DNA of 34,096 bases, taken from the NCBI RefSeq assembly GCF_000003605.2, contig NW_003119461.1, positions 22,874-56,969 of the forward strand, written 5' to 3'. The position numbers and the translations under genes were made by a program. Each line of letters begins with the position of its first letter. Position 1 is the stretch's first letter. The notes below the pieces were generated by a model. The model worked only from the letters and a program-made list of their open reading frames with translations. It searched no databases and was not told where the DNA came from. Origin of the DNA: Saccoglossus kowalevskii. Its lineage: Eukaryota; Hemichordata; Enteropneusta; Harrimaniidae. Shown one piece after another: positions 4,639 through 29,651 of the stretch.

Positions 4639-5022
4639 TCAAACTTTGTCAGTCACACTAGAATCTTTGTCAGTCACACTAGAATCTTTGTCAGTCACAC
4701 TAGAATCGGTACCATTTAGTCTATTGTTTACACACATATACAATGTTATAATAGCTATTACTAACAACAGCGTTATTATCACTAGTATCGTTATTATACT
4801 CAGCACATATATCCTGTTTGATTTTGCGCCTACGTAAACAACATCTTTTACAATTGTTGTGTCCTGTGAGATAGAAGAGATTTCGGTTGTCACCATCACT
4901 GGTTCTGGTGGTTTCAGATAAACTTTCTGTGATTGAAAACGTCTACCACACGTGGTAACAATTTCACAGTGATATTCACCAAAGTCATTATTGCTCACAA
5001 TCATGTTCAATGTCACATAATC
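4639..5022 (-). CDS. Gene A last exon: Ig second half, transmembrane helix, repeat tail
   Basis: The exon starts after TTTCTTAG in phase 0. It reads DYVTLNMIVSNNDFGEYHCE, the canonical E-F strand D.G.Y.C signature of an I-set/V-set Ig domain, followed by a G strand (SQKVYLKPPEP) and a Thr/Ser-rich stalk. A hydrophobic helix (IYVLSIITILVIITLLLVIA and onward) is followed by a tail of about 30 residues containing DSSVTDK three times before the stop at 4639-4641. It pairs with exon 5313-5452. Membrane orientation is type I, by analogy with the upstream signal peptide. Confidence 0.82.
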   Translation of the reverse strand, partial: DYVTLNMIVSNNDFGEYHCEIVTTCGRRFQSQKVYLKPPEPVMVTTEISSISQDTTIVKDVVYVGAKSNRIYVLSIITILVIITLLLVIAIITLYMCVNNRLNGTDSSVTDKDSSVTDKDSSVTDKV

Positions 5023-8000
5023 CTAAGAAATTAAGAATATATTGGTTAAACAGTCTCGCATACACTCCAACGATTTATTGCCGATATTGAGCAATAATTG
5101 TATGGCACCCATTAATAATTTACAGTGATGATATTTGGTGTCCAACAGGTATACATTATTTTGTTTCATTCGTATTAAATATAGGCATATAGATATGATA
5201 CAAAACTGGTTAAAGTAACAACAACTTGCAGAAATTCGTTTCACCTGCAAATACATAATGACGATGCAATCAAATATTTATATAAAAATGCAACATGACA
5301 CAATGTACTTACTTTTCTAATCAAAGTGGTGTTATTGTGGAACCAGTTCGTTTCGTACGGCTTCTCTGACGATACAGCACATTTCATTTCTATAATATCA
5401 CCAACAGCGACATTTTCATGACCTTTCTTTATAATCGATGGTTGTAATGTATCTGAAAATAGATACCACATCAACAGAAATGTAATGGTTTCCTACATTA
5501 TCAGTTCATACCTTCCGCAATAATACTGATCAGATATAAAACAGCATGTCAATATTTGCTAGAAATGGGCATGATTATCCGGTTAAAATGCAAAAGTTGA
5601 AATTCAAAAGAATTAAGACAAATAAGTTAAACTATGAGATACAAAGTTCCAATATATATGCTTGATATATCATATATAGAGTACTCTGTGAACAGTGAAT
5701 TTCGACTGTGGCGCAGAGGTCGTATGAACTTGTGATCTGTATTTGTATTGTGGCATTGTGAGGACAAGCCTAGCCAGAGCATATAGTACAATGGTTGTCC
5801 CTGGGCGCTGGCCAAACGGCCAAGTCCAGAGAGAAAACAAGTGGACCAGTTCCGGTGTATATGTCTGAATCTATGTCTGCCTGTCTGAGTCTCTCTGAGT
5901 TTCTATATAAAGTAACATGTCTTTTTATAAGGTAAATCACGTGATTCAAATTTATAGATCACCTGACTCAAAACACCTTTTATGATAGGACGGTGATTCA
6001 ATACACCCGCATAAGTTTCCCGAAAATACATTGAATAAAAATACAAAAGTGATTTTAGCACCTTCACATCGTAGTGAAATACTATATGTGCTGATTTGCC
6101 GCAGGTGATAATGTTCTTGGAATTATATTATTACACGTGATGTCATACACTGTCAGCTGCCCATATACCACATACTTGCTATAAGCAACACGGATATTGT
6201 TTTAAAACCACGCCTGTTTAGAGCGTGTGAATATATGCTTGATATTGTTTCAATTCAAGCGTCACCCGTGGGAAACCTGTCAACGTTCATGATGGGTGCC
6301 AATACGAGCGATATGACAATTCCATCATTTTGGTTTTAGATACGTAAATAAAAATATGAGAAGCTGACCAATAAGCAATACAAGTAGTACCTTTACCTAA
6401 CATATATTTTAGAACGCGCATTTGTGGGTGCCATATTTTCGGATGGATAATCACTGTATAATCAAAACTAAACCATTGAACTGAGAATCCACGGGTGGTC
6501 AGCCGTATAAAACATATCTTACATTTATTGTCAAAATTGTTGAACTTAGTCAACGCTAGAAGGGCTTTAACAATGTAATAGTACGAGAAATATATCACTT
6601 CTGGTAGACAACAAAATACAAAATGCTGTTCAATGCAGTCTATTGTATATTACAGAAGCCTAGCTGATTTCAAAACATTAGGTTCTCAATTGAGACTAAA
6701 TTCTAAGTATTTCTTACTAACCCTCGATGCAACAGCGCCTCTTCAGTGCACTCTATACATACTACACAAACAAATTTGTCTGAAATGAATATCTAGATTT
6801 GATCATAGCCCAGAAGTGGAACCATTTTGGCCATGCATTAATGAGCAGAGATAAGAAATAAAATCGTATATTCAAACCTAGAAACAATAAACAATTGTTT
6901 GTACACAACCTCAAGCAATATATTGGCCATCTCGCCAAAAAAATTCAAAGTGTGCGCCACATAGTATATTTTTTCAAAAACAAGTTATAAGACATCATAG
7001 TACACCAGACAGCTGTCAATACCGGTCAATCAGTAACCATGAATTTCGTATTCACGTCCTCTGCCTCAAAAGCGTTAGTTGGTGAAGACACTAATTCGAC
7101 GGTATCTGAGCCATTGCTCGCAATCTGATAAAACAGACACGTGTATGTTAATTGTTTGGATGGCAACGCCCAGTGTGCATGTTATGCAATATTGCAGTGT
7201 GCATTATGCAATAGACAGTGACTTAAAATTTGATGTTTCACGTAGATAATTTTAATTTGCCTGTGTAATGTACGTGTATGTTTACCCAAGTCTCTTGGAT
7301 ACACATGCACACACCACCAGGTATCCCAGTTCAAGGTAGGTTTATTGTAATGAATTGTACTGTATTGTTATCCTCGTGTATAATAAATGTTTTTATAATC
7401 TATTTGAACATTGTAATTATGTATAAACTGGCATGCACCCCTTGTAAAACGCATGTGTATCTTGTGAGTCACCCCTGAATATATTGAATCTATTGTTGTG
7501 GGTTTTGTCGATGATTTACATTTTAGAACGTTTGGAAGCAAATATTACTTACTGTCACCAGTCATTTTCAATTGAGGAAAACATTAACAAATGAATAAAA
7601 ATTCATTGCTAATTCATTCGCACTAACTAACAGTAGGGGGGTAGCAGGCTATCTATGTATAACAATTGTTAACTAACCATGTAACTTTCCCCAAAATGTA
7701 TGTGTTTTACTGATTCGTGACTTGTATACCGCTTCCTTCAGAAGAAACGTTTCATGTTCAAATTGGCACGTGATTGGATCAAAGTTGATTGATATTATGC
7801 CCTCCTTTAGAAAGGGTTCGACACCATGCGGATGAACTGTGCACGAAATTGGTCCTCTAAACTGTTCACCGTGATCATGAGGGAATGAAAATAAATCTAT
7901 TGCAGTTCCGTTCTTTTTTTTTGTGAAGGATACATCAGGAGATTTGTTCGTCTGCAGTCGAATGTGTAGAGACATCGCATATCCAAGTCTTCCATACAAT

Positions 8001-9839
8001 TTACTACCTGCATAAATAGATCTTATTACATTCAGAGTGTATTACATATTTAGTAAATCTAACAATTATATCAGTTTACCATTCCCAGAAACGAACGTGT
8101 CAGTTAGGATTGTATATAAAATAAATATAAACATCTACATTATATCTTTTGTTTTTAGGTAATTTTATATATCCCGAAAATATTTGAATTAAATATTTTA
8201 GTTGTAGTTATTTATACAAACGTATATTACTACCTGTAATTGTTAGCACGTGTTCACTCAGTAATCTGTTTTTCGTGTCGAAAAATGTGTACAGTCCACT
8301 ATGATGGTAAGACACATTTTCCAAACTGAGTGATGGCCTTGTAACTTTTCTCGTCTCAGCTTTGCCTGTTAATTATTCAGAATAGAGGATAAGTTTGAGC
8401 AAGCGGGTCACAAGTTTTCTTTACTAATAAATATCGATCGATAGTCAGTTTGTCAATGACAACTAAACCACATACCTGTCACACTAAAGAACTCATAGCG
8501 TTCAGTAAATACAGGAATGTCAAATTCTACAGTGAGACCTGAGTCTACATAGGCATCAGTGTTCATTGGAATAAGAACAACATGGTTACCAGTATGTCTG
8601 GAAGCTATTTACACAGAGTAACATACCGAGATTTTTACTTTTAATTTGTAGGTTTTCAATGTACAATGTATAATTGTATTCAACATGCAGGTTGTATAAC
8701 TTGTTATGGTGGTATGAGTGGATCAGCGGACGTAATGTAGTCATGTGTACATAATAAGTTACAACAGCATTGCGTAAGAACACATACAAATGGTATGTTA
8801 AATTGCTGTAGTATGTATATGTATGTAAGACTTCATGGTTTTTAATTGAATACTAATTGATTTGAAATGTTTTTTTTTATGTTTTTTTACAGTATTGCCT
8901 TTGTGGGAAATGCATGAACGAGTGAAATAATACTGTCATCATTTTACAAATTATTATATACAGTTTGATGGATACCAAATTCAAGCAATTCTATCTGTTA
9001 TAAACATTGTATAGACGGGAATTATAATGCCAATGATTAATGAATTTATTGCCAGAGGCATTGACGTTTAGGCGAAACTAAATGCTGTAAGATGCTTTAT
9101 CTCATAATATTATAAGAATAATAATATAAGATAAGAATATAATAAGAATAAATCCAGACGTAAAAGAGCCCAGCATTAATGTGATGCTGGAAGTAACTGT
9201 AACTTTATTTCTGCAGTTTTATTCCAGGTGAATTATGATTTTTCCATAATGTTGTGCACAACACCTTGAACACATGTTGCACGATGTATTCATCAACACT
9301 AGGAATGTTGATAAACTTTACCGAGTAGCGTTAGTGTATTGAAATTATACACATATGTCATGTAGGTTTTGCAGTACTACATATGAGGGTTTCGTGTTGT
9401 TATATAATTATATGTGATAAAATTATGTGATGGCAGATATGATATTTTATGGTTTTTAAGGGTATGGTTGAACCTGATAGTATGTTTGAGGCAGGAATAT
9501 TCATAAATATGTATTAAGCTATGGTTGAATAAATACTCCAAGTATTTGGTAAGCATACTTACGTACAGTTTCAAGACACTGTCTGCTAAGAACCATATAT
9601 ACTATGGGAAAAGAGGGAGAGATAGAGACAGACAGACAGAGAAGTGACAAAATAGAGAAACGAAAGATTACCTCTATAATTATAATTATAATTACAGTAC
9701 TATTAAAAATGATTGAATAACGTTCTGTTATGTATTCTGTGGCGGTTTGTTATATCAAGCTTTAATAATTCCTTGAAAGCTACTTACAGTGATTCCAAAA
9801 AAAGAATACGATGACATATTTTAGTTTGATGTGTACCAT
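4639..9839 (-). CDS. Ig-superfamily single-pass membrane receptor (gene A)
   Basis: Assembled by hand from exons whose phases agree, 5' to 3' on the minus strand: signal peptide 9788-9839; optional 39-nt exon 9563-9601; V-like domain in two halves, 8476-8604 and 8234-8365; a 110-codon Ig-like exon 7678-8007; a half-Ig exon 6397-6555; membrane-proximal Ig domain 5313-5452 plus 4639-5022. The last exon also carries the transmembrane helix, tail and stop. All upstream junctions are phase 1; the split of the last Ig domain is phase 0. The product should be a cell-surface receptor with about three to four Ig-like domains. The cytoplasmic tail is short and shows no ITAM or ITIM tyrosine motif. Ligand and role cannot be read from sequence. 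Uncertain points are whether 9563-9601 and 6397-6555 are used, and whether other exons are missed. Confidence 0.6.
4644..4706. repeat. Three exact 21-bp tandem repeats inside gene A coding sequence
   Basis: CTTTGTCAGTCACACTAGAAT occurs three times head to tail without a mismatch. On the minus strand it encodes three DSSVTDK heptapeptides, the end of the receptor tail. Perfect identity implies recent expansion. A length of 21 keeps the frame. Confidence 0.9.
5313..5452 (-). CDS. Gene A exon: first half of membrane-proximal Ig domain
   Basis: The acceptor CTATTTTCAG precedes the exon and the donor GTAAGTAC follows it. Entry is phase 1 and exit phase 0, matching 4639-5022. The frame reads ...HENVAVGDIIEMKCAVSSEK and then ETNWFHNNTTLIRK. 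The B-strand Cys and C-strand Trp are spaced as in an Ig fold, and NNT is a possible N-glycosylation site. Joined to the next exon it gives one complete Ig domain with C, W and D.G.Y.C. Confidence 0.8.
6397..6555 (-). CDS. Candidate half-Ig exon of gene A (B and C strands)
   Basis: The acceptor CCCTTCTAG opens the exon in phase 1 and GTAAAG closes it in phase 1; 159 nt is 53 codons. The frame reads ...NKCKICFIRLTTRGFSVQWF, with a B-strand Cys and a C-strand Trp at Ig spacing. I found no matching second half (D.G.Y.C) between 5453 and 6396, so it may be an orphan, a skipped exon or a relic. Inclusion would not shift the reading frame of gene A. Confidence 0.45.
7044..7122 (-). other. Possible exon or exon relic within a gene A intron
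   Basis: After the acceptor-like CTGTTTTATCAG the minus strand reads IASNGSDTVELVSSPTNAFE, then AEDVNTKFM, in phase 0. Neither entry nor available donors (GTGAAT, GTTACT) fit the phase-1 pattern of gene A. It could be a decayed Ig-exon start or chance open frame. Confidence 0.2.
7678..8007 (-). CDS. Gene A exon: 110-codon Ig-like domain
   Basis: The exon is exactly 330 nt, phase 1 in (TTTATGCAG acceptor) and phase 1 out (GTTAGT donor). That is the same length and phase as the V2 exon of gene C. It reads GSKLYGRLGYAMSLHIRL, PDVSFTKKKNGTAI, ISCTVHPHGVEPF, then EGIISINFDPITCQFEHETF. The alternating beta-strand pattern suits an Ig-like fold, but the canonical B and F strand cysteines are not at their usual places; the two Cys lie in the loop and E-F regions. 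Domain class (Ig C2/I-like versus FN3-like) is uncertain. Confidence 0.6.
8234..8365 (-). CDS. Gene A exon: second half of V-like domain
   Basis: Acceptor TTAATTAACAG, donor GTAGTA, 132 nt, phase 1 to phase 1. It reads RPSLSLENVSYHHSGLYTFF, the E-F strands of a V-type Ig domain (L.L..V...SG.Y), then RLLSEHVLTIT as the G strand. The residue normally Cys after Y.x is Phe here. Confidence 0.68.
8476..8604 (-). CDS. Gene A exon: first half of V-like domain
   Basis: The acceptor TGTAAATAG is weak and the donor GTATGT is good; 129 nt, phase 1 to phase 1. It reads ASRHTGNHVVLIPMNTDAYV, then SGLTVEFDIPVFTERYEFF. The position of the B-strand Cys (after HVVL) is Ile. It is followed after a 110-nt intron by the second half of the domain. 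Confidence 0.55.
9563..9601 (-). CDS. Candidate 39-nt linker exon of gene A
   Basis: CTTTTCCCATAG precedes and GTAAGTATG follows it; phase 1 to phase 1, 13 codons, without a stop. Both splice sites are good, but the peptide is too short to recognise, so this rests on splice-site quality and phase only. Confidence 0.25.
9600..9700. repeat. Simple-sequence tract
   Basis: GAGA/GACAGACAGACAGA imperfect purine tract at about 9611-9646 and ATAATTATAATTATAATTA at about 9677-9696. Non-coding. Confidence 0.6.
9788..9839 (-). CDS. Gene A first exon: signal peptide
   Basis: ATG at 9839 opens MVHIKLKYVIVFFFWNH: a basic start followed by a hydrophobic core, typical of a signal peptide. It then meets the donor GTAAGTAGC in phase 1, the phase needed by every following exon. 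The alternative, that gene A starts further upstream, cannot be excluded. Confidence 0.5.
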
Positions 9840-9844
9840 GCTTA

Positions 9845-11560
9845 TATATTTTCAATATATTTTAATTCACAGCTGGATTACTAATACTCTTAATGATGAC
9901 TGTATCTCGAATCTTTTAAACGCCTCCTATTACAAAGTACAAGTGAAGTGAATAATATATTCATCCCTGGATAGCCATCATGTAGTGTTTCAGTGTGTTA
10001 GATTGTTTGTTTGTGTTTTTGTGTATTATTTGACGATATGCACAAGGATTTCAATTAGCAGGTTGCATTTGGTTGTCGTTGTCCAATAATGCTACACAAA
10101 AAGACAAGATGCCCCTTATAACATGGTGAATTATTTGCTATTTTTTAAATTCAAAAGGATACAAAAATCATGTGTCCGCTAATGTTATTATTCACGATTA
10201 ATTGCATTAGCTTGTGATTGTACAAAAAAGGATCAAAATTCGTATACTTGTAGAACATAGTAAACATGGTCACATCATGGTTTCTGGAAAATCGCAGATA
10301 GCGGACAAAGTAATTGACCAATCAGAGAGTTGGAAGCTTATTCTAGTTATTTAGATAAGCACTTAAGCATATACCAATTTTCAGAACTGTATCGGCAACT
10401 CTTATACAAAATTACCTGCAACGCAGCATAACTTGATCTCCAATTGACTTTTTCTCTCGAGAACGGTTAGACGAAATATACCGCAATTTTGCATGTTGAT
10501 GATCTCAAGCAGTTTGAAATAAAAATGTCCGAGTGAGAAGCATTAGACAATTTCAAAACAAAATGGTTGCTAAACCATGTCACTTGTCAACACCATTTTA
10601 TTTCTCGTAAAAACAGTGATCATACATGCAACATGCAATATATGGAGTTTATCAGTTGCAGCGTTCATTGGAAACAAATGCCCACAATTTTATCAACTTG
10701 CGATTGATTGGAATATACTTTCTGTTGCCCGAGGGAGATCAGTGGAGAGATGCAATGTGGATAATTCAAGTCAATGGGACAAATGTGCTGACAGTATGAA
10801 GCTATTCCTTGATGGCGGCCAAACCATGTGACCAATCACAATCGCTTCTGATACTTTGATGCACTTCATGCATGGATGTCTTTTCATTAAATTGAGAGCA
10901 GTGTGTTCAGTAGTTTTGTAGAAATGGATTTTCAATCATTGTTTGTCAAACATTGTGGCCAAGGTCACGTGACCACTGCATATTTTATTCCGAATTACTG
11001 TAGCCCATAAAATCAGCTTTTTTGGAAAAATGAATTCGCCCCTCCAGACCCTCAGAAAGGGTAAAAAATCGTATCTTGAGGTTTTGATTAAATCCAAAGC
11101 GGCGCCCAATGTTTCTGACAATCAATAAGTGAATGAACTTCAAGACTGTCACAGCCTATAAAATGAACATTTAGGTTAATTTTGTATGGGGATGGCGGGT
11201 GGACACTATCTAAATAACCCAAGAGGACATTTGACATTGGGTCAAGAACTCACTGTGAGAAAAAAAAAGTTCAAACACGTACAGTAGTGTAATAAAGCTG
11301 ATCAATTTGGGTTATGCTGCACATTGTTTTACTTTACCTCTGTACTAGTTTATATTGTATTATTGAATCAACGGTAGATTGTTGCATGTAATGCGCTATA
11401 ATTTCAATAGGAATATTATACAAATGTTCACCCCAAATGTTCTTTGAATTGCATGTTCACCGTTATTAGGATACACATTTATATTAAGGTATATATGCAG
11501 GTCCGTGGATACTTGGAAGTGATATCATGTTTGATTTTCATATAACAAAGTTGTCAAGCA
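9845..11560. other. Non-coding AT-rich region
   Basis: Short open frames occur (for example 10577-10831) but show no homology, domain pattern or splice context. CCAATCA-type motifs recur near 10317 and 10831 and GGTCACGTGACC at about 10963; they are consistent with old repeats, which I cannot name. Confidence 0.4.
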
Positions 11561-11579
11561 GTATATTTGGCGTTTTTTC

Positions 11580-12130
11580 AATCCCGGTCAATATTTCCAA
11601 CTTCGAAAGTCATTGTCCGAGAAAGCCCCGACGTCCTTGTGTTCGTAAAGGCGTGTTCAAAATAGTGTCAACCTGACAAAAACTATGATAACTAATTAAG
11701 TTTCAATCTCTCAACCAGAAAACACAAACGAAGATAATGCCCCTTTTATGAAAGCGACGTTTATAGTTATCGCCTCACGACCAAATGCCGAAATATACCA
11801 TAAACCGACGCTTGCTGATGTTGAATCGTCAGGTAATATTTTGCTACACAACGGCTTTTCACAGTTTTACTACTCAGTCGCTCAGACGGGTCGATACAAA
11901 TTAAACGAACCTTGACCTCTGAAAATACCTCATTCATAGAGTACCTTAGTACCAGAGGTCGACGAACACGGCCATACAACGTACTTTGCGACATTGCTAC
12001 CGGTGCATGCTAGCTCACAGGGGGTTCAGATTAAGGTAACCATCAGCATTGGTGTTTATTCATTGCATCACAACGCTATCAGCAGGGTGATCGTTTCAAC
12101 GAAACGAAAAATATTCACTTCAGTGTTAAC
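11580..12130. other. Locally GC/CpG-richer block of unknown nature
   Basis: CG dinucleotides are much denser here than in the surrounding AT-rich DNA. A minus frame at 11767-11928 after GGTATTTTCAG reads EVKVRLICID and could be an exon, but no second anchor supports it. The block could be a promoter-like region, an exon-bearing block or an old repeat. Confidence 0.3.
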
Positions 12131-13032
12131 ATGCCTTTCGAGTAAAAAATGCGAGGAAACAATGCAAACAAGCTTGAAATATATGCACCAATGGACCAAG
12201 AAATTAAAGAAATATGTTGCCTTGTTTTGCGTACGAATTAAATCGCGCTATCGGGCCTTCCACCTACATGAACATAAATAAAAAAACAAATTATTCAACA
12301 GTATACCACTGGAAGCTGTCAGTCTATAGGTTATCGACATGTTGCGAGATAAGGGTGAAACAGTTTACTCATCATTTACAACTGTATGTTTTTTTTTCAT
12401 TCCGCTTGCATGCTGAAAGCGTCTACGTCTTGTCTGTTTTTGTAGCTTGCTTGAGGTAAGTAAACAGGGAACCAGGACAGGAAGTCACACACCGCTGCAT
12501 CGTAACTATGGCTAGCATATAACTAAAACAGTCAATCAAAGAGTAATGTAAACACATTTTTGGGACTTTTAGTCACATGCGCGTGCATCGGTTTCCTATA
12601 TTTTAAAACCGAGTTTTGAGTATGTTTCATCATTGACAAAGCTCCGAAATTTTAACACTACCCAGGCAAGACTGTTTGGGTTAGACCAAAAAAATCACTC
12701 TGAGTGCCAACGAATCTGCATGTATACCTTAATATACCGAATAAATTTTAAAACAGAGATTATGACACTCAAACATGACAGACGTTCGCTCGTTGATCTG
12801 AATTGCATATATGAACACAAAAATACGTTTATGAGCAGTGAATTTAATTGAGTTTTATCATGAACGTCTTGTTTATCTTATAGCTGTGTAGCCCTGCATA
12901 CAGTGCTGTGTGTACGGGACGCGTTCAGTTGATAGATGTCCCCACCACAGCCCTGCGTACCTCCATAGACAAAGTACGGGACTTTGAAAAATATAATTTT
13001 TTTAATGAAATAGCATGCCCAGGTACCAAAAA

Positions 13033-13048
13033 TGGTGATCGATCACCA
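13033..13048. repeat. Perfect 16-bp palindrome at the gap edge
   Basis: TGGTGATCGATCACCA is its own reverse complement and ends 3 bases before the N run. It may be the centre of a larger palindrome whose other half is missing. Confidence 0.8.
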
Positions 13049-13051
13049 GAT

Positions 13052-13712
13052 NNNNNNNNNNNNNNNNNNNNNNNNNNNNNNNNNNNNNNNNNNNNNNNNN
13101 NNNNNNNNNNNNNNNNNNNNNNNNNNNNNNNNNNNNNNNNNNNNNNNNNNNNNNNNNNNNNNNNNNNNNNNNNNNNNNNNNNNNNNNNNNNNNNNNNNNN
13201 NNNNNNNNNNNNNNNNNNNNNNNNNNNNNNNNNNNNNNNNNNNNNNNNNNNNNNNNNNNNNNNNNNNNNNNNNNNNNNNNNNNNNNNNNNNNNNNNNNNN
13301 NNNNNNNNNNNNNNNNNNNNNNNNNNNNNNNNNNNNNNNNNNNNNNNNNNNNNNNNNNNNNNNNNNNNNNNNNNNNNNNNNNNNNNNNNNNNNNNNNNNN
13401 NNNNNNNNNNNNNNNNNNNNNNNNNNNNNNNNNNNNNNNNNNNNNNNNNNNNNNNNNNNNNNNNNNNNNNNNNNNNNNNNNNNNNNNNNNNNNNNNNNNN
13501 NNNNNNNNNNNNNNNNNNNNNNNNNNNNNNNNNNNNNNNNNNNNNNNNNNNNNNNNNNNNNNNNNNNNNNNNNNNNNNNNNNNNNNNNNNNNNNNNNNNN
13601 NNNNNNNNNNNNNNNNNNNNNNNNNNNNNNNNNNNNNNNNNNNNNNNNNNNNNNNNNNNNNNNNNNNNNNNNNNNNNNNNNNNNNNNNNNNNNNNNNNNN
13701 NNNNNNNNNNNN
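13052..13712. other. Assembly gap (661 N)
   Basis: Unknown bases. All open frames crossing this interval are artefacts of N translation. The flanks are inverted repeats, which probably caused the assembly to fail here. Confidence 0.99.
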
Positions 13713-14129
13713 GCGTCCGTACACACAGCACTGTACGCAGGGCTAATAGCTGTGTTGATAAAACTAGTTTCAGCTGCTTCATCCTGATGAAGAATTTTTT
13801 TTTTATAAATTCGCCCGCTGCCAGCCTGTGCGCAACTATACGCCACACATTCCATTCCAGAACACTGAATTAATTGCACACGGTGCTGCACATTGCTTTA
13901 GTATATGCTTATATCAACAGATTCCCTTTCAACAAATACAATGTACATGGTACATAATATGTAGATATACAAAATAGCTAAAATAGGCAAAGAAATCAAA
14001 CAAACCTGTGCTGTTCCACTGCAAAATCCACGACTCTCAAATTCGTTAAAAAAAAAAAATGCGCAATCGAATGTCGAACATCAGTACATTTTTCTTTTCT
14101 TACTGGGTGAAATCTGCGTTAACACATAA

Positions 14130-14580
14130 AACTTACTTTTATATTTGTACACAGTGATGTGAAATGTTAAAATACGTTTTACAATGGTGTGATTAAAACC
14201 TAATTTTATAAAAAATCTAAATAAATATATCTAAACTCACCAATTACGTTTACTGTTGAAATCAGGAGGTACGACGTCGACACACCATCTGCGTTTGCTA
14301 CTTGGCAAGTTGTGACTAAGCTATCAGACTGCTTGTTTAAAGTACTTATTGTTTAAACAGATTAAAACATTCCGTTTTTTTTGTATAACAATAGCAGATT
14401 TGTCGATTGTTTAGAAAATAAATTATTAATAATCAAATATAATTGTCTATCATACCAGGGTGGGGGTCGTTCAATAACATGCTGACATTGTACATTGGAC
14501 TATTAAACAATGCTCCACAAATATCAATACCAGTGATAATTATAAATTGAGAACAATGAGTGCAGATTATTTCAACATTA
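14130..14580 (-). pseudogene. Ig-type receptor exons, minus strand (gene B remnant or partial gene)
   Basis: Three neighbouring pieces read as Ig gene parts. 14456-14580 reads NVEIICTHCSQF, then GIDICGALFNSPMYNVSMLL, and meets the donor GTATGA in phase 1 (B-C strands). 14241 to about 14345 reads ISTLNKQSDSLVTTCQVANA, then DGVSTSYLLISTVNVI, ending at GTGAGT in phase 1 (E-F-G strands with the F-strand Cys). 14130-14192 after AAAATTAG reads GFNHTIVKRILTFHITVYKY, phase 1 to phase 1, ending at GTAAGT, like a stalk exon. The first two pieces do not join cleanly in phase and I found no signal or transmembrane exon, so this is either a decayed gene or one whose remaining exons lie in or beyond the gap. 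Confidence 0.38.
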
Positions 14581-15866
14581 AATTAATTGGACTTTGAAAC
14601 ACCTGATATCATTTATTTGTATACCTTCAGGGTCTAATTGATCATGTTTTTTCTTCAGAATTGGGTTCTTAATTTAAGCCACAAATAGCATCGTCGTAGT
14701 TTTAGTGATCAGTGACATACTGTCGAAATGCAGTTGGTGCATATATGCTCCTGGTTTGAGACATGCTTTTCTTACTGAAAAATGAGCAATGTGGTTATGA
14801 GGTCATGAGGTTACATGATCATACAGTTGTATCTGTACAATACCTTCATTATATCATTGATTGCATGCTTCAACAGTGTTTCAGATACCACATGACCTAC
14901 TGATGTGATATTCCAATGAACGAACCAATCTCCAGTGTGAATTACACTAGCAGAACTTTAGATCAATCCTACCAATACACCACATATGAATATACAATTT
15001 TCGTTCCCCCCCCACAAAATGAAAGTTGACGATTATTATTTCTCATAGAAGGTATGACCATATACGTTTATTACAAAATATTAGTTAATTGATTGAAGCA
15101 TTCAAGAGAAACAAGTCCCTCAAATTTGGTATGTTTTGCCTAAAATCAAAGATAGTGGCTAAAGTACATAGCTTAACAAAATGTTATTTTTCTCGATATG
15201 TCATGCATGTTATATTCAAAATCAGAATACCATGTTGGTTGAACGAGTTCTCACTGGTCCGCATAAGCATACAAAGAAGAAGAAAAAACGAACAATATTA
15301 ATAGGAGCCAAGCCATTCAGGTTTGAGCCCTTAAAATCCCGAACAATAAGCTATAGGCTATTAACATTTATAACACAATAAAATCATGCGTGGATCTCAC
15401 TCCTGCAAAAAATTAGTAGTGCCAAACAATTTTAGCGCCATTTAATTTCTATGTAATGTCTCTGGATTTCCTTGAAGATTATTCTATAAAGAAGTGAGTG
15501 AAAGATTTCATCTATTTTATGCGATGTCTGAATTCGAAACGTTCTATCAAGATTGGATGGCGTCCTCTGGTGTCAACCCCCAGTACATCTGTCAACTAAC
15601 GCTTGTTGTTTGTGACATGTAAATAGTTGCTGAAAAAAGTGCTGACAAATCGTTAAGCTTGTATTCAACCGAATTTTTTATCAAGATTGGGTAATAATAA
15701 TATACATCGTCATGATCATTAACATATGCTGTTGCTAGTGGGAGTGCGTCATGGGTTAAATATTAATAATGAGACAGTTGGTCGTGGGTAATAGTTGCTA
15801 CACGAAACAGTGTCTATTAAAACGGAGTTGTACGTCTTCAGTTTGAGAAAAAATCCAATTATTTGA

Positions 15867-15915
15867 ATGTACTATCACACGTTTCTCCTACTGATTCAGT
15901 TGGCTGTATGGAAAG
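15867..15915 (+). CDS. Gene C first exon: signal peptide
   Basis: ATG at 15867 opens MYYHTFLLLIQLAVWK, a compact hydrophobic signal sequence, ending at GTAGAT in phase 1. The intron to V1 is 240 nt (acceptor TCAAGTACAG). The matched phase and short distance to a complete V domain make this start convincing. Confidence 0.72.
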
Positions 15916-18900
15916 GTAGATGTATTTTTTTTATCAAAGGCATTTTTGAGACGTCGTTAATACTATGCCCTAAAGTTATTTACTAACGAAAACAACTACA
16001 CTTATTTCGTTATATATTCTATATATGTTATGTTCATAAACCTTTCAAAACACTACAAACCCTATATTAGTCAATCAGTTTTAGGCAACTATTGTTATAA
16101 AGCCACCAAATAACCCTCACCCTGAAACAAATATCATCTTTACTGTCAAGTACAGGTAATGATGGAATACAGGGATATACTGGTAGTTCGGTGCAATTGG
16201 AATGCCCACTTCAGTTGACAGCTAACGTCAGTACAATAAGGTGGGAATCGACAACATTTTTAGCGGTGAAGGGTCTAAAAAATAGTGTTGATCGGAATAT
16301 TTATAGACAGAAATATTTTATCAATACGACAACTGGTAACCTTGATATTCGTAAATTACATCTGGAAGACGGAGGCAATTATTTTTGTATTTTGTCTTAT
16401 AATGACTCGGACGAACAAAAGAAGCGTAACGAATTACTTAATGGTGAGTGTGAAAACAATATATTATTACTAATAGTTTTGCAATAGGCACCCATGAATC
16501 TGACCCGTAATAACATTCATAAGAATGACAGTACTATTTTAGTGACGATCGGCAGTTATATGGTATGCCACAAAAATACGGGTGAACGCCCAGAGGAATA
16601 AACAAAGCTATTTTTTTTGTCATTTCATATCGAGTATATGTTTTTTATTTTGGTCAGGTTTTCTTAACTGTATTTAGCAGGCCCGAACGACTAACACTGT
16701 CTAATTAAGCTTCGTAAATAATAATTTGTACATTTGGTGCTACACAGCATACATTTATTACAAAAAATAACAAATCTCAAAGAAAGACAAAACTGAATAA
16801 AACGAGACAAACGCTATATATGCTTTATAAATAACCAATAATGCTTGGAATGCTAGTCAACTATTGTTCATGGCCATCATCATACATACATGTATTCACA
16901 GCACCATGATACAGGGTTAATTGGTAGGTAAGAGTTATTTGCAGAAAACCAATAAAGTATCTTAAATAATCTCTGTATTAACATGTTAATATTAATTCCG
17001 TTGATCAGAAAAGAAATATTTCACATTATTTGTGTTTTTCGTTTATAATTAGGGAATCTGCAATAACGATTCTTTATTTAGGGGTCTTGAGCATTCAATG
17101 TGGGGGCATAGGTTCTGAAAGTACTTAGTATTCCCGACTTTGCATTATTCCAGACACAAAGGAACACTTTATCATTAGGAGACGCAAATACATGTAACTG
17201 AACCTCAATAATATATTGCACAATTTACGACATATATGCATATATGGAGTGAATTGTGCTATATCAAGTGGTATACCCAACTTCAGCAGGAGGGGGGAGG
17301 GTTATTGCAATTGTATTATACCAGTATATTGACAATTCGAGAAAACTAGTAAAAATAAGAGTTTACTTGCATCTACTATAAGATAATCATTATGGCCCTT
17401 GAACATGAATATTTATAAGAATAGTATGTAGCTGTACACTGAATGCATATAAAAATACATACGCAACAAATTGACTAACAAATAAAACGAAACGTATATT
17501 CAGTGAATAGAGCAGCGTAAATTAGCATAACAAAAGTTGACTTTTATGACCTTTTACTGACCGCGTCAATGTATCATTAAAACAACGGATTTTCTACGTT
17601 TTCATTCCGTTTTTTGTACAATTTGAACTGTAATTTGCCTATTGAAAGTACAGTTGTGAAAACAACGGTTTTGTGATTCATCATACTATTTGTATCTGTG
17701 AATATTTAACGTTCAGCGGTACATTATTCGACCGAAGTTTGAGACATGCGGGACGCGGTAGTGTAACTTGCACGGTGACTGGCACGGCGACCTCAGTACC
17801 AACATCTGACCTGGATACATCTTTGGTATAACCAAAGTTTTGTAAGTTTGTTGGTGTAAAATCGGATTCTCGCATCGTTTTTGTGACACGTACATGATAT
17901 GCCTTGCCGCAACTTCGGAATGAAAGAATTTGCACGCCGGCGCTGTGTACTGTGGTTGGTGTACACTCGGTCTAAATCTGCAGATTACCTTCATCATCTC
18001 CTGTAATTTATTAACCCATAGTGGAGAATTACAATACCATATATCGTCGTCGAATTCTGAGTTAACCCTTGTTCATTGGATGGCAGTTACCCGGGTGCAA
18101 TTTGACTGCAATTTTGTCTGCTAGTCGAACGCCGCTACAGGACACCGGTTGTTTCTAGTGGCAAACATTTTTGCCTGTGACTCGTTTTTTTGCATTTTTT
18201 TTTGTCCATCAATCCCCCAAGCTCATCTAGTTAGTCTTCAGTTAAAATTAAAGACTATGTTTTCTTTGTTCGAGATTCACAATTCTGTCAAAGTAACAAC
18301 ACGGAGAACACAGCGTTCTGGCGTTCGTGTAGGCACCTCACGGTGTTAAGGGACGGTGGTTTAGGTTTATGTGGCGAACGACGATCACCCAATGACTGAC
18401 GCTCATAAATTGGATCCCACCATTAACAAAAAGCAATATGGTTATATCATTTTTCAGATGTTTTTAATTCGGTATTTTTTCCAATATTTGTCCAAAATTC
18501 AACCACTATATTTCCGAATGTAGTCAATTCATGTTCCAGGGCCATTAGGTTTAGCCGTGTATTAGTATCAGCCAATATACCATTCATTGCATATGCAAAA
18601 TTTGTGTTTCGACCAATCAAATCGTTGGATTATCACCATCAATATACTGGTATAATATAATTAATTGATAAATTTGTATGTTGCTCTCACAGGATTCCTT
18701 CCCAAGTTATGCCGGTTTATGCTATATGATTCATCCTGCTCCAAATATTCATAATAAATATTTCCGTTGTAGATTCAGCTGTTAAAATCCCTAATCACTA
18801 ATCTGGCTTGGCGTCGTTTCTAAACCTGTGTTATTGTCACGTTTATGCGCAATGTATGTTTCCATAGTCTTTAGTTCGGTTGGGATTAGCTCGACCTCTC

Positions 18901-19607
18901 CAAACTTGAACGGAAAAATGATAATAGATTAAACAAACTTCAGTGTTAATTGCTCATTAAAGACATTTAATTAGCCAGCCTCTGATTAAACCCAATAAAC
19001 TATTAAATTCTACATGGTATTCAAACATCGCACCAGTACTATCGACGTATCAAAATGCACAAACTAACCTACTAACACGAAATATGTAAATTATGTAGTT
19101 CTCTAAAGTAATTCTAAGCAAAGCGTCAGTGCATAGAGTTTTAAAATCCGGTAGTCCATCCGCTCGTCTGTCACCACTTTAAGTAGGGGAAACGCACTGC
19201 CTTCTGTCGATATACATGTAAACTGACAATAAAACTGTTCACGCCTACAATACAATGACAATGTTATTAAAGATGAAAGAAACAAATTTGATAACTTCTA
19301 GCAACTGAATAACGAAGAGTTATTATGTTTCCTTCTGGGAGATACAACTCAAGGTTATAACATAGAAATATGTTACACCATAGACAAACTTATGAAAGGA
19401 TGTTTGGTTTATGCCATGGACGTTAGAAAACATTTTAACTCTAATAAGTAGATTGTAATGTTATTTTTATTGTACTATTATTAATTTTGTTATATGATAT
19501 TTTTTCTTGATCTATAACTGTATTTCCTTTACTTATTTTAAGAAATGTATCTTTAATTTTGCAGCTTCTGTAAAAGTGAGCCCCTGCTTTAAAAGGGTAG
19601 CAACAAA

Positions 19608-19682
<75 letters not shown>

Positions 19683-22600
19683 ATACATAGCTGCACATAT
19701 GCATTACTTTTCCTGTGTAATCCCGGAAGTATTTTCGTACATGTTGAGTAAATATCACTATATATATCACTATTACACCACGTCTATTACTCTGTTACAA
19801 GATTGTAACCAACTTGCCATGTATTCATCAAAAGGCTTTGTTAGTACATTAATCGGGTATTACATTTCACTCAAACTCAATATTGCTGCCTTAAACACAA
19901 ATAAATTGTGACTGGCTTTGACTTTTGTAGGCTGACAGGCACTGTATGTATGCCTGCCTTTAGACTCAGGTGGAAAGATGACGTCATAGTGGTATGTAAA
20001 ATTACACATAAATGTAAGTTGATGCATTTCAACAAAAAATTGTAACGCCAAACGTGCAGACTAAAGTTTTGATAATGTAAGCATAACTCTAAATATTTTC
20101 TGAAAAAATACATTCACAATATCGAAATATAATCATCCCTTGATTAAAGAACCGAAATTATTAAAAAATGAAATAACGTTTAAAACAATTGTCTTGTTAC
20201 CTCATTATTTTACTATACTACATCAACTCTATAATAATTAAAATGTACTAGTGTGACAAACAATATTACATTTTACTCTAAACGCTAGGCCTAATTTCAA
20301 TGGCCTATTTGGCTCCTGTGTTATTTCTAACAACTTTATTTTGTTTTTCAGTTGAACCGTTTACGCAGTATGGAGCCATCGGCCAATTCATATCTCTTCA
20401 TTGTACGGCTGAATCTGATTCGGAAGAATGTTCTATCACGCGTGTTAGATGGAATGCAGGCACTTCTTTTGAAAAAGAATTTCTTGCGCAACGTATTTTT
20501 GGAAATTATACTGATTCAAAAAGTACCTTTAAAAAATATGTTATTGAAGATTCCACAAACTTGTCTATACATGAACTTGATGAATCACATTCTGGCCTGT
20601 ACACGTGCACTGTATATTACACAGAAGAGCAGACGACAGAAGAGCAACATGACGTCAATGTTGTCAAGCTCATTGTTCAAGGTATATCACAAAAAATATA
20701 CACTGACATTTTAACCTGATGAATGCATATTAATTAAGAAATAAAAAAAAAACACTGCCAGCAACGAACGATGTCGAAAGACGATATTCATAGAATTATG
20801 AGCATCTATATTTGCCTGTTTATTCGTAGCCCAAAACGAAAATTATTTACACTATTGTCCTTTTATTCGCATGTCTACAACAAATTAATACGCATGGAAT
20901 ATCACACACAACTGATTTATTTAACACATTTTGTTGAATGTTTATAACAAGGTGATTGTGGTTTTATAAAAATAATTATCGTCACATGCTCAATTCTGGT
21001 ATTGGTATCACATATTGTGATACTAAGTTGTTGTATTTTTGAAGAATAATTTTTTGATTTTATATGCAATCAATATAATTCTGGGCAACCTATCATTGAT
21101 TCAACACACATGCCTGATCATGAAGAATTTGAAGTTTCCAAAGAAATCATTCTATTTCCCATGGGTGACTAAGGCACTAAACGTAAGATTTAACCTAAAT
21201 GTAACTAAGGAGTTTAAACACTGATTCAGATATACACCAGCCACTGTAATCCACTGTTATTTGAATGGGTAAATATTTTGATTAAAAGGTGAGGTTTAAC
21301 ACAACAATGGTCCAAACAATTCATAATAATAATAAAAAAAATGGATATCGTCTGAGTGGCTAATGTAATGATTGTCATTCATGCACATCTTCTTTAGATA
21401 TTTCCAAAATAGGAGAAAGTGCTACAGTTTTGTAAATCTGCATCTTGTACGGGTGTTATGCTCAGTTAATATGCATTTTGGTGGAATGTCAGGTTTGGAT
21501 GGAAGGGGATGGCATGATCTAGTTGCCAGGTTGTTAAAACAGATCCCTTTTTTAACACAGCTTTTATATTATCCAAATGGCATTGTTAACACTATAATCA
21601 TTCCACGAACCCGTATAAGCATTATTATTTATAGGAACTTTAGATCAAAAAGTGCCCTATATTTGGAAAGTTTACCGAGGTTAAATTGTGTGATCGGTTT
21701 AAAAGCGTGTGTACATGCGATTAGCCTAAATTTCAGGTCAAAACGTAGTTCTTGCAAAATTATTATAAAAATCCCGTAAACGGGAGATGTCATCTGGTTA
21801 GGAAATCAGAACGATTTGAAGCAATTGATGCGTTCTTTTTTGAAAACGCAATCGTACAATTTAAGGTAAATTTACTTTTCGAAACGACATGTTAAACACA
21901 TCTTCAACGATACGTCGTTCATTCACAACTTCATTCAACAGCACACCGTTCATCAAATTATCGTAAACAAAACCAGTAAAGCAACGGGGGATTTTTTAAT
22001 AAAAAATAAAAAAAAAACTTTGTTTCATCGTCGTGGCAATATTATGCTTCCATGATTAGTGGGATCTTCAAGAATGAGCGTTTATGGTCAACATCTCATT
22101 AATCATATACGCAACGTAATCTTTTGGGAATCGATTGTGTAAATATCCGCTTCCGTAATATGTTGAGTACTTTCACAAATATATTTCGCTATGACTTTGC
22201 TTCTTAAAATACCCTTTTACTCTGTGACAATAATTTTAATTTCTAATTATTATAATTATATTTAGTGAATATTTTCTCCTACATTTTGGGTAAATTGTTT
22301 TTACTTCTTCAGCAAAATGATAAAGGATTACTTGCAACCGGAATTTAGATTTTATTCACATCACATCGAAACACAACGAAATCTTAGGAAAAGTTAGGAA
22401 ATACTTATCTATATTATCACCACTGAACTGGCTATAAAACTATTAGTAGATTTAAATTAATCTAATTTGACTACATGTATTATGATCCCCCAATATGGTC
22501 GTGTTTAGCCTCTGTAGAAAATCACATGTCAATTAATCTATATTTTACAATGTTTTAATTTCACTACTTCAACAGCTAAGTAATACCACTAAATTGCAAA

Positions 22601-25401
22601 TTATATTAATTATAATTATATAATATTATTATAGTATCCTTACTTTAATAAATTAAAATGATATCTCCCAAAACAAGATGTGTAATATAATAATTTGCGT
22701 GGTGCTAGGGAGATATTTGGTCATGTTGCAAAAATGATATAGGCATTTGTAATGATTTAATAGTAATAGAATATTGTTGAAATAGTCTTAAAATGACCAA
22801 ATAATGAACAAATTATGAACAAAGAATTGAAATAATGACATAGCCATTTACACATGGTAACTGACAGACATGATGGAAGACATGATTTTTTTTTACTTAA
22901 GGTTTTACGCCGATCATGAAAGTTGGTATCTCCACAAAGAAAACAATGTTCACTGAAGCAGATGATAAGCCCGGTAAATCAACAATAGCATACCATAAGC
23001 AAATAGGTAGGTAAATATTAAATATTTTTGCTATTTTAACTACTGTTATGGTTATTATCTTCATTTACCATGGGTAACTAGCAAAATGACGGCCAGACTT
23101 TCACAATGGCCAACTTAATAATTTAAAGTGGGAATCACAATTATGTACGTCATATACATGATTATTATCAATTGTGTAATAATTCTTCACATAGTTTATT
23201 GAGTACTGTTCCGTTGTACTTAGATAAACAATAGTATATTCAAAACTTACACAGACACCCTTAATAACAGACATGTTATATTTTAGCAGGCACCCTATCT
23301 CAATGTGCTATCACAGTATATTTGTTGTTACGTCTGTCTCTATAAAGTCAACAACAGTAACCTTTAATATGACATTTTGCGCCTTACTTAAGTAAATCGT
23401 ATATTTATTTTCATTCGTACGTAACTCCTTTGTTTCTTCTTTGATTTTTTTTCTTTCTTTCTATCTCCTTAACATTTATTTATAGATTTTACTACGACGA
23501 CGATGGAAATTGATAGCACCAAAGCACACTCAAAATTGATCACTGATACATTAGTAGACGTTAAGCTGAGTAATGCAACAGAAAAATACAAAGAACAAGG
23601 AGGTAAATATTTTATATAAATATTTTTTTTAACACTGGCATTGTAATTTTAAATTATTGTACACAAATAGAATGGAAAGTGAGTCAGAGAACAAGAGCGG
23701 CTTATACCCTAGTTTGTGGCAAGCACATCTCAGACCATGGCAACTACATGCTTTGAGCTGCTGCAATAGACTTCACATACTAGCTGTTCTGTACACCAGG
23801 CATCATAATGTCATGCTTGTAATTACTTATCTCTGCATGCTAATTGCCCCGTGTCCCAGTCGGCAACAGGGCTTGATATAGTACATTTAATCATATTAGT
23901 GATGTCACATGACCCCTCAAGCCGCGCCGGCGAGACCACCATTATTTATGCTTACTGTTTGTCTCAAGACGAAAATTTCAATTTAAATCTGAAATCCCTA
24001 CTACTTAAATTTTACAAGCATGTGACCCACAAGGCATTATTGTACTTTCATGACATAAGTTCAAAGGTGGACATGCATGTAAGTTTACATAACATATCGA
24101 TAATTAGAAAATACTATCTGCCTTTAAACTTGCACAAATTGTATTTATGTAATCCCACTATATTCACTGAAGGTCAAAGTCACTGTAGGTATGCACATTT
24201 CGAAGGATGTATGCAAATATGTTAACAGTATATATTTAAGGGAACAATGAATTCCATCTTTACCAACAGCTTATCTTTGCTACTTGCAAGGCTTGTTTAA
24301 ATTTAAATTTTTAGGGCACAGGGAAATGTTCCAGAGTCACCAAATACATTTCCATCTATAACATAAAAACATAAGGCCTAAATTGTGGCTTTGAGTTTTG
24401 ATATTTGATATATTTTCTTCTTTCATTCATGCATTCATTTATCTGTTTATATATTTGTTTTAATTTTGCAGGAATTACTACAAATAAAACAGACACAGGT
24501 AATGTTACCAAAATTTGTCAACTTTTTATGTAGAACAAATAATAACTGTACAACATGTGCGACTACTACTCAATGCTAACGTTACTTTGCTCATCACATT
24601 TTGCTATCTAACTACTGATTGGATAAGATATACAAGATACTATCAAGGATAATTGGTAATATATTCAACATAGAATCAATAATTTAACAATTAGAAACAA
24701 AAATATAAAAATGTTATTTGAGGATGGTGACAATAGCAGAATACCTGATGTCTGGTGTGTGACAATTTCATCTATTTGAGTATTTTTTATTTACATTTTA
24801 CTGCAATTAGTAGGCTGTATTCTTATGTTGTATCAGTGTTTTGAATATTGTCACAGAGTTTACTTACCGTACACATTTTCATTCAGGGCCGGATAATCCA
24901 GAAAAATATGTCATAATAATCGTGGTAGTGGTAATCATAGTAATAATCTTTGTTGTAAGTATGTTTTTGTTTATATTGCATATCATAAAGACGCACTCTA
25001 TGAAAACAGTAGCTTTCATTCATATTTCATGAAAAGTTTTTGTATTTTATATATTTTTAATTTGTATTTTTACAGTGCGTATACATATATACAAAAGTAC
25101 ACAAAAGTAATAGTGCTCAGGAAACAAGAAATACTGTGAGCTGGTTTCATATTTACTTTTATCGTTCTCATTTGTATACAAATTATTTATCCGTGTATAA
25201 TTGACTATAAATTAGATATTTTGTAACCCAATTCATCAAAAAAAAATTCAATTTGAGAAACCCAAATAAATGCATTCAATAACTACAATATAGTCATAAA
25301 TTTAAATAACCTACACTGGTTAATATATGTTCTTTTCTGTATGTGGCGGGTTTATGGTTCATATGCAAAAAATCTGGCACAGAAACTGAATGAAACTACA
25401 G
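15867..25401 (+). CDS. Ig-superfamily receptor with two V-type domains and long stalk (gene C)
   Basis: Exons in order, all extracellular junctions phase 1: signal peptide 15867-15915; V1 16156-16443; V2 20352-20681; stalk 22902-23006 (or ending at 22973); stalk 23486-23602; 27-nt stalk exon 24472-24498; transmembrane exon 24887-24954 (phase 1 to 0); tail exon 25076-25135 (phase 0); and a 19-nt tail exon 25383-25401 (phase 0 to 1). Each extracellular exon is an exact multiple of three, so any can be skipped. The stalk is Thr/Ser/Lys-rich. The 3' end of the gene was not found: the last junction leaves phase 1 and no terminal exon is clear up to 26350. It is also possible that V1 and V2 belong to separate genes, since 3.9 kb separates them and V2 has its own signal-like leader (see 20300). 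Confidence 0.6.
16156..16443 (+). CDS. Gene C exon: V-type Ig domain 1
   Basis: A whole V domain in one 96-codon exon, phase 1 to phase 1, donor GTGAGT. It reads GYTGSSVQLECPLQ (B strand with Cys), NVSTIRWES (C strand with Trp), then GNLDIRKLHLEDGGNYFCIL (E-F strands with D.G.Y.C). NVS, NTT and NDS are potential N-glycosylation sites. The G strand is weak (KKRNELLN). Confidence 0.85.
18458..18649 (+). other. Candidate phase-1 exon within gene C intron
   Basis: TATCATTTTTCAG precedes a 192-nt open stretch that ends at a GTATAA donor, phase 1 to phase 1. It reads DVFNSVFFPIFVQNSTTIF, then FIAYAKFVFRPIKSLDYHHQ. The strand-like alternation and DYHHQYT faintly recall the SYHHSGLYT stretch of gene A, but there is no Cys-Trp-Cys set. 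Chance open frame or diverged Ig exon. Confidence 0.25.
19171..19244 (-). pseudogene. Possible decayed Ig exon fragment
   Basis: After TTGTATTGTAG the minus strand reads, from phase 1, GVNSFIVSLHVYRQKAVRFP then YLKW and a TGA. The pattern resembles Ig B-C strands, but the stop follows directly. No partner half was found. Confidence 0.22.
19605..19684. repeat. (AAAT)20 microsatellite
   Basis: Twenty uninterrupted AAAT units. Just before it is AGCCCCTGCTTTAAAAGGGT then AGCAAC. Such a tract after a retroposon-like 3' segment is a common arrangement for non-LTR retroelement tails, but I cannot identify an element body. Confidence 0.95.
20300..20351 (+). other. Branch point/pyrimidine tract that also reads as a signal peptide
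   Basis: ATG at 20300 opens MAYLAPVLFLTTLFCFS in frame with the V2 exon, so an unspliced transcript starting nearby would encode a secreted V2 protein. The same bases contain TTTCTAAC and a pyrimidine tract ending in CAG, an excellent 3' splice site. Both readings are possible; pyrimidine tracts translate to hydrophobic peptides by chance, so splicing is the simpler explanation. Confidence 0.5.
20352..20681 (+). CDS. Gene C exon: V-type Ig domain 2
   Basis: 330 nt, phase 1 in and out (acceptor TTTGTTTTTCAG, donor GTATAT). It reads QYGAIGQFISLHCTA (B strand with Cys), SITRVRWNAG (C strand, Trp), NLSIHELDESHSGLYTCTVY (E-F strands, with SGLYTC), then VVKLIVQ (G strand). Extra Cys in SEECSI may pair locally. 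Same length as the 7678-8007 exon of gene A. Confidence 0.88.
21398..21780 (+). pseudogene. Decayed V-type Ig exon in gene C intron
   Basis: After the acceptor CATCTTCTTTAG, phase 1 reading gives DISKIGESATVL, an Ig A'-B strand start, and then a TAA where the B-strand Cys would lie. Further on, another frame gives FWWNVRFGW, and a third gives SALYLESLPRLNCVIGLKAC followed by VHAISLNF, resembling E-F strands ending in G.x.x.C. Three frames across one domain-length interval imply at least two indels. This looks like a dead third V exon between V2 and the stalk. Confidence 0.4.
22902..23006 (+). CDS. Gene C stalk exon 1
   Basis: Acceptor TTTTTTACTTAAG; reads GFTPIMKVGISTKKTMFTEA then DDKP. Two donors are available, GTAAAT at 22974 and GTAGGT at 23007, both leaving phase 1, so alternative stalk lengths of 24 or 35 codons are possible. 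Hydrophilic, Lys/Thr-rich linker with no domain. Confidence 0.5.
23486..23602 (+). CDS. Gene C stalk exon 2
   Basis: Acceptor TTATTTATAG, donor GTAAAT, 117 nt, phase 1 to phase 1. Reads DFTTTTMEIDSTKAHSKLIT then DTLVDVKLSNATEKYKEQG. Thr/Ser/Lys-rich linker with one NAT glycosylation site. Confidence 0.55.
24472..24498 (+). CDS. Gene C stalk micro-exon
   Basis: A 27-nt exon after TTTTAATTTTGCAG, ending at GTAATG, phase 1 to phase 1, reading GITTNKTDT with an NKT site. Short, but the acceptor is strong and the content matches the neighbouring stalk. Confidence 0.45.
24887..24954 (+). CDS. Gene C transmembrane exon
   Basis: The acceptor TTTCATTCAG precedes GPDNPEKYVIIIVVVVIIVI then IFV, a single helix of about 18 Ile/Val/Phe residues, ending at the donor GTAAGT in phase 0. 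Reading through the donor would add a further hydrophobic stretch and stop at 25029-25031, a possible alternative end. Confidence 0.72.
25076..25135 (+). CDS. Gene C cytoplasmic tail exon
   Basis: Acceptor TTTGTATTTTTACAG, donor GTGAGC, 60 nt, phase 0 in and out. Reads CVYIYTKVHKSNSAQETRNT. A basic juxtamembrane segment follows the helix, consistent with type I topology. A YTKV sequence is present but lacks the usual residue at -2 for an ITIM. Confidence 0.6.
25383..25401 (+). CDS. Gene C candidate 19-nt tail exon
   Basis: CTGGCACAG precedes KLNETT and the donor GTAATT follows, phase 0 to phase 1. The pyrimidine tract is about 45 nt upstream (GTTCTTTTCTG). It is weak by itself. Confidence 0.25.
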
Positions 25402-28779: not shown

Positions 28780-29330
28780 ATACCATCATCACCTCCCTCA
28801 AAATGCCATTGTCTTGCTGTATACCATCATCATCACCCTCAATGTTACCATCATCTTGCTGTATACCATCATCACCACCCTCAATGTTACCATCATGCTG
28901 CAGTATACCATCATCACCACCCTCAACATTTCCATCATCCCGCTGTTTATCATCATCATCACTATCAACCATGTCATCATCCTGCTGTATACCATCATCA
29001 CCCTCAACGTTGCCATCATCCAGCTGTTTATCGCCATCATCACCCTCAACCATGTCATCATCCTGCCGTATACCATCATCACTCTCAATATTGCCATCCT
29101 CCCACTGTTTACCATGATCATCACCCTCAACCATGTCATCATCCTGCTTGTATACCATCACCACCACCCCTCAACGTTGCAATCCTATTGTTGTTTATCA
29201 TCTTCATCACCCTCAACCGTGTCATCGTCATGCTGTATACTATCACCACCACCCTAAACGTTGCCATCCTCCTGATGTATACCATCATCACAACCCTCAA
29301 CCTTGCCATCATCCTCATCTTTTTTGCCCT
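28780..29330. repeat. Minisatellite inside the transposase N-terminal region
   Basis: Imperfect units of about 40-45 bp built from CCATCATCACCCTCAACNTT then GCCATCATCCTGCTGTATAC alternate with variants containing ACCATGTCATCATCCTGC. On the minus strand one frame gives acidic repeats such as DDDMVEGDDGDKQ and LDDGNVEGDDGIQ. The plus-strand frames over the same bases (Ser/Pro-rich or Ile/Thr-rich) are shadows of the repeat. Confidence 0.85.
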
Positions 29331-29651
29331 CACCAACTTTTTTTTATCAATGCCAGCACCATGGTTTGAATTAGTGGTTTTAGTGCCATTGCCACTACTT
29401 CTTCTCTGTTGTTGTCTTCTCCTTTTTCTTCTGTGTTTAGAAGTATGTGAAGAGTGAGGCTCATCACTATCCCTTGTATCATCGTGACTATGTTTCTGTT
29501 CCAATTGCCTTCTACGATAACTGTGCTTTTTTTGTTTAATGCTACCACTAGTACTAGGATGGGAACTATGTGGCGCAAAACTATCACTTGTATCCACACA
29601 GGTATATGCAGATATATTACATAAATTTGGCTTAATATGACCTTGAGCCAT

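Follow-up and report, generated by a model that had tools for sequence, protein, structure and literature searches.

Two neighboring, divergently oriented immunoglobulin superfamily genes in Saccoglossus kowalevskii, probably encoding type I membrane proteins

Overall organization of the window

The window analyzed here is a stretch of 34,096 bases from a contig of Saccoglossus kowalevskii (NW_003119461.1), and the subject is a pair of genes in it, gene A on the minus strand and gene C on the plus strand. These probably encode two type I membrane proteins that belong to the immunoglobulin superfamily (IgSF). The two genes are divergently oriented, lie some 6 kb from each other in this animal genome, and are not recognizably copies of one another. 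The DNA of the window is animal-like in character, with spliced genes, transposon pieces, and a single gap of 661 N (13052–13712); leaving out the gap, its G+C content is 34.6%. The domain content, domain order, splice frames, and hydrophobic transmembrane stretches of both genes can be read directly in this DNA. The two-gene explanation is favored because the intron phases are consistent, Pfam matches exceed their cut-offs, and the signal-peptide candidates are rare by chance. It is also favored because no DNA similarity joins the genes, no further Ig exon was found, matches in the Protein Data Bank (PDB) are fold-level, and N-glycosylation sequons are present.

A sequence-only reading had described the region between 4639 and 25401 as a compact cluster of Ig receptor genes with live, skipped, and dead copies, shaped by birth-and-death evolution. 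Its basic observation stands: Ig receptor genes lie on both strands, with Pfam matches above the cut-offs used (26 bits for V-set, in gene C; 30 bits for Ig_3, in gene A). Open reading frame (ORF) length by itself is poor evidence in this DNA, since the longest run without a stop codon has 145 codons, compared with a mean of 125 under the null.

Structure of gene C

Gene C encodes a signal peptide, two V-set domains, a threonine-rich stalk, and a transmembrane helix, in this order, on the plus strand. Exon 1 (15867–15915) encodes the signal peptide MYYHTFLLLIQLAVWK and ends in a phase-1 donor. A signal peptide of equal quality occurred in 0.2% of 1500 random 300-nt sequences, the thresholds being set, as for gene A below, at the values of the observed candidate. 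The two Ig exons, V1 (16156–16443, 288 nt) and V2 (20352–20681, 330 nt), are phase 1 on both sides and have splice sites. As two ORFs, they reach Pfam V-set scores of 26.6 and 38.1 bits, respectively, both above the cut-off, and the whole chain reaches 52.2 bits over two stretches, which places gene C in the V-set family. A self-written C..W..GxYxC pattern matched the real region once, at V1, and none of 300 first-order Markov sequences; V2 narrowly fails this pattern. V1 and V2 share 25–27% identity, and an old internal duplication is therefore suggested.

The stalk comprises three exons, each phase 1-1 and each recognized by an open frame and splice sites only: 22902–23006 (105 nt), the Thr-rich 23486–23602 (117 nt), and a micro-exon at 24472–24498 (27 nt), the weakest of the three. 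The transmembrane exon (24887–24954), which has splice sites and runs from phase 1 to phase 0, contains the hydrophobic stretch YVIIIVVVVIIVIIFV. It is followed by a cytoplasmic exon (25076–25204) that is either spliced at 25135 or read through to a stop codon at 25202–25204. With 25076–25135 as the last, the eight exons form one open frame with AG/GT ends, and the modelled chain contains seven N-glycosylation sequons.

The 3′ end at 25401 proposed in the sequence-only reading survives as one of two options: it depends on a 19-nt exon whose pyrimidine tract is poor, and a terminal exon read to the stop codon at 25202–25204, with AATAAA at 25265, appears at least as likely. The read-through tail contains TNYLSV. 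Its TxYxx[VI] motif, known as the immunoreceptor tyrosine-based switch motif, is expected in 2.3% of 4000 random open tails, and a broader pattern resembling the immunoreceptor tyrosine-based inhibitory motif in 21% of them.

Gene C matched 83 PDB sequences at E ≤ 1, contactin-2 being the best (4.2e-5); the matches to contactin, JAML, nectin, and myelin P0 are weak and fold-level. The possibility that V2 opens an independent gene, with a signal peptide of its own, was also considered and was rejected by reasoning: the in-frame upstream MAYLAPVLFLTTLFCF comes from translating the pyrimidine tract at the V2 acceptor. Searches for V2 relatives gave 35 pattern matches in viral contigs, none of them confirmed, and no match in phage records either as DNA or as protein, results that mean little for an animal gene. 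Within the V1–V2 intron, nested inverted repeats (24 bp, 96%; 27 bp, 85%) bound a 1.35-kb segment (17309–18662) that is a possible DNA transposon.

Structure of gene A

Gene A is predicted to encode a candidate signal peptide, a V-like domain (D1), a second domain (D2), a split I-set-like domain (D3), a transmembrane helix, and a short tail. Its placement on the minus strand in the sequence-only reading was correct, and the last base of its stop codon is 4639. Five exons (8604–8476, 8365–8234, 8007–7678, 5452–5313, and 5022–4639) join in frame. The first two (129 and 132 nt, both phase 1-1) encode the halves of D1, which is V-like and contains zero cysteines. The third (330 nt, phase 1-1) encodes D2, and the fourth, running from phase 1 to phase 0, the first half of D3. 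The last exon encodes the second half of D3, the transmembrane helix, the cytoplasmic tail with three copies of DSSVTDK, and the stop codon.

It is D3 that assigns gene A to the IgSF, with an Ig_3 score of 33.8 bits in the 347-residue chain, above the cut-off; in a 173-residue piece, the score is 27.0 bits, below it. Gene A matched 48 PDB sequences at E ≤ 10, the best being CD22 (8.7e-4), and the D3 matches to CD22 and Fc gamma receptors are weak and fold-level. At E ≤ 10, D1 matches nothing in the PDB, and the one match of D2 (E 4.3) is to an unrelated protein, inactive rhomboid protein 2.

A candidate first exon at 9839–9788, new to the gene model, encodes the signal peptide MVHIKLKYVIVFFFWNH and has the phase-1 donor ACT/GTAAGT. 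A signal peptide of this quality was matched in 2.8% of 1500 random 1235-nt sequences. The choice of this exon is not certain, because two more start sites on the minus strand, 10494 (with one better donor) and 10668, also passed a looser screen. At the other end of the gene, three perfect 21-bp repeats (4644–4707) encode the three identical DSSVTDK units, whose copy number could differ among individuals. No tyrosine signaling motif was seen on reading the tail.

Intron phases and exon lengths

The phase-1 pattern noted in the sequence-only reading was recovered in both genes. In gene C, all six introns from the signal peptide to the transmembrane exon are phase 1 and one phase-0 intron follows (1,1,1,1,1,1,0 for the seven introns between eight exons). 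In gene A, three of the four introns among the five modelled exons are phase 1, and the phase-0 intron lies inside D3 (1,1,1,0); the candidate signal-peptide intron would be phase 1 too. In animals, shuffled extracellular modules are as a general rule encoded by class 1-1 exons (PMC8001218). The two 330-nt exons, at 7678–8007 (−) and 20352–20681 (+), are indeed equal in length, but the coincidence carries weak weight: its chance was 0.094 in a simple simulation with a uniform model and three domain exons.

Relationship between the genes

The cluster question was judged from this 34-kb window, for genes A and C and for an intervening minus-strand remnant, "gene B" (14241–14343). Self-BLASTN of the window (E 1e-2) gave 17 non-self pairs; no pair links A, B, and C or touches their exons. 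All 17 are satellite, microsatellite, AT-rich, or inverted repeats, and four have arms within gene C introns. When the domains were compared by BLASTP among eight sequences, V1–V2 was the sole clear match (E ~6e-8). It was followed by D1 to V2 (E 0.01, over 16 residues), D1 to V1 (0.03), and D2 to V2 (0.05), and the best match of gene B to pieces of A or C had E 0.41. A translated search of the window with D1, D2, and the stalk, carried up to E 2, found nothing below E 0.13 outside their own exons. The protein similarity between the genes does not rise above noise to fold level. Because these neighbors share no sequence, they are not live and dead copies, and no recent duplication is apparent in the window.

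Gene B itself is reduced to one stretch of 35 residues with an Ig-like look and no Pfam match at E ≤ 10, and its description as a gene remnant was not upheld. The exon, TLNKQSDSLVTTCQVANADGVSTSYLLISTVNVIG, has a good phase-1 donor and might be the second half of an Ig domain, which is unproven. Six-frame Pfam scans were run on whole frames (4.6–19.6 kb) and in segments no longer than about 1000 residues (minus strand, 9.9–13.05 and 13.7–25.5 kb; plus strand, 13.7–16.1 and 16.5–25.5 kb). Between 4.6 and 25.4 kb, they revealed no further Ig exon, the complete list of Ig matches being V1 (19.0 bits), V2 (33.3 bits), and the first half of D3 (14.5 bits). D1 and D2 were missed as well, so diverged or split Ig relics could escape such scans. 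Minus-strand ORFs at 17.7–18.1 kb were considered as Ig relics and rejected; they have no Pfam match and lie inside the inverted-repeat-bounded segment 17309–18662.

Several related copies, some of them broken, would mark a birth-and-death cluster, and these were not found within the window. With neither DNA similarity between the genes nor an additional Ig exon in the window scans, the live, skipped, and dead copies and the birth-and-death evolution of the sequence-only reading find no support here. Two Ig receptors and a possible third fragment do lie within about 21 kb, with inverted-repeat elements close by. Yet A, B, and C lack DNA similarity, the architectures of A and C differ, and extra Ig exons are missing from the scans, so that a single immune or allorecognition family of fast turnover comprising A, B, C, and relics is unlikely. 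The Alr system of Hydractinia offers an argument in its favor: Alr proteins have low overall mutual identity and sit among many gene models thought to be pseudogenes (PMC11067881). An old, diverged cluster would therefore be compatible with low similarity. As here, the Alr genes are linked and encode single-pass IgSF proteins (PMC11067881). Unlike in Hydractinia, there are two genes only and related pseudogenes were not found in the window, and the likeness is one of description.

Evaluation of the gene models

Several results weigh against the reading of A and C as two IgSF membrane protein genes. In the assembled chain, D1 scores 22.0 bits for V-set, and by itself it scores 13.1 bits; neither value reaches 26, so D1 falls outside the V-set family by this measure. 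D2 matches no Pfam family. The AlphaFold model of D2 from its single sequence (predicted local distance difference test, pLDDT, 40.6) and the model of V2, with V1 as the only other alignment row (pLDDT 37.9), are both uninformative. Because even V2, a clear V-set domain, was modelled poorly, the poor model of D2 says nothing about its fold. Finally, the stalk exons and 3′ end of gene C are predicted from splice consensus alone.

Gene A, gene C, or both might be decaying pseudogenes whose frames are still open, as the cysteine-free D1, the lack of a match for D2, and the ambiguous 3′ end of gene C would allow. This seems improbable, since the internal exons of both genes are open, have AG/GT ends, and agree in phase. 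Moreover, the hydrophobic or aromatic residues at the D1 cysteine positions resemble, by reading, an old disulfide-free Ig domain. In the CD2/SLAM family, D1 is disulfide-free and the tail carries a TxYxx[VI] motif. Gene A is similar in having an outer V-like domain without the canonical disulfide, but differs in that no PDB entry matches its D1 at E ≤ 10 and its tail, as read, has no tyrosine motif. The single TxYxx[VI] occurrence noted, TNYLSV, belongs to the alternative tail of gene C.

About equally doubtful is a longer gene A that starts beyond 14.3 kb, with the 14.2-kb exon as an upstream Ig half-domain. The strand is the same, and the phase-1 donor suits the phase-1 start of D1. However, the signal-peptide candidate at 9839 (2.8% by chance) is closer, the area around 14.2 kb has no Pfam match, and a look through the translation by eye, which does not amount to a test, showed no convincing first Ig half. 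It is highly improbable that a larger recognition locus, polymorphic and lineage-specific, has A and C at its ends and that within it the V–V receptor, with TNYLSV in the read-through tail as a switch-like tyrosine motif, faces the cysteine-less V receptor as a linked receptor–ligand pair.

Comparison with known systems

Like JAM-like molecules, nectin, and myelin P0, gene C has a signal peptide, V-set domains, one transmembrane helix, and a short tail, and its PDB matches to these V-set adhesion and co-receptor molecules are weak (E 0.0008 to 0.02). Unlike them, it has two V-set domains, no recognized C2 domain, and a long Thr-rich stalk of three small exons. For gene A, a counterpart in architecture is Botryllus fuhc-tm, which has a signal sequence, three Ig domains, a transmembrane domain, and a tail without a known signaling domain (PMC3691228). 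This resemblance is generic and by description alone; fuhc has 15 exons and a linked secreted gene, unlike gene A (PMC3691228).

Other features of the window

A 29-bp inverted repeat (12889–13745, 97% complementary) flanks the 661-N gap and is perhaps a terminal-inverted-repeat element with an unassembled interior. On the minus strand, 27319–29675 contains a broken piggyBac-type transposase with two DDE_Tnp_1_7 matches in different frames. Upstream of these matches lies a 42/84-bp tandem repeat (28775–29315), perhaps in the acidic N-terminal part of the transposase. A gag-like stretch (33828–34088, −) reaches the window end and contains one CCHC zinc knuckle scored at 24.7 bits (zf-CCHC) and another recognized by reading.

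At the left side, 375–1797 (+) has broken-up ORFs in several frames, one with the Cys-rich end CSCMKAGMSCVCAVKC. No Pfam family exceeded its cut-off in the three ranges scanned, the CSCMKAGMSCVCAVKC frame lying outside the scan, and the segment is perhaps a decayed mobile element. Relatives of the 734–1543 ORF were sought in viral, bacterial, and archaeal collections, with one pattern match in viral contigs and 28 in genome contigs, none confirmed, again a result of little weight for animal DNA. A possible first exon, MSDRNRRSLRFSTDSV..., lies at 2765–3037 (+), with GT sites at its end and no family match in Pfam.

Proposed roles and implications

Since adhesion and immune receptors match alike, the PDB matches do not decide the role of either protein, and a recognition role for genes A and C is a guess. 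For gene C, the signal peptide would take the protein to the cell surface, where the two V-set domains may be held on the flexible, Thr-rich stalk and the outer one may bind a partner protein, as proposed by analogy with V-set adhesion and co-receptor molecules. In the gene A protein, a helix with a short tail would carry the I-set-like domain next to the membrane, followed outward by a second domain of unassigned fold and the cysteine-less V-like domain. Because no tyrosine signaling motif was read in this tail, the protein may act by binding or via a partner rather than by its own signaling. The nearness of the two genes could be due to chance or be the remnant of an old IgSF neighborhood.

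Collectively, genes A and C look like ordinary IgSF genes as far as their sequence goes. If confirmed, they would offer two animal Ig receptors for work on partners and role. Phase-1 symmetry and closeness are by themselves not enough to define an immune cluster, a point that is useful when other windows are read.

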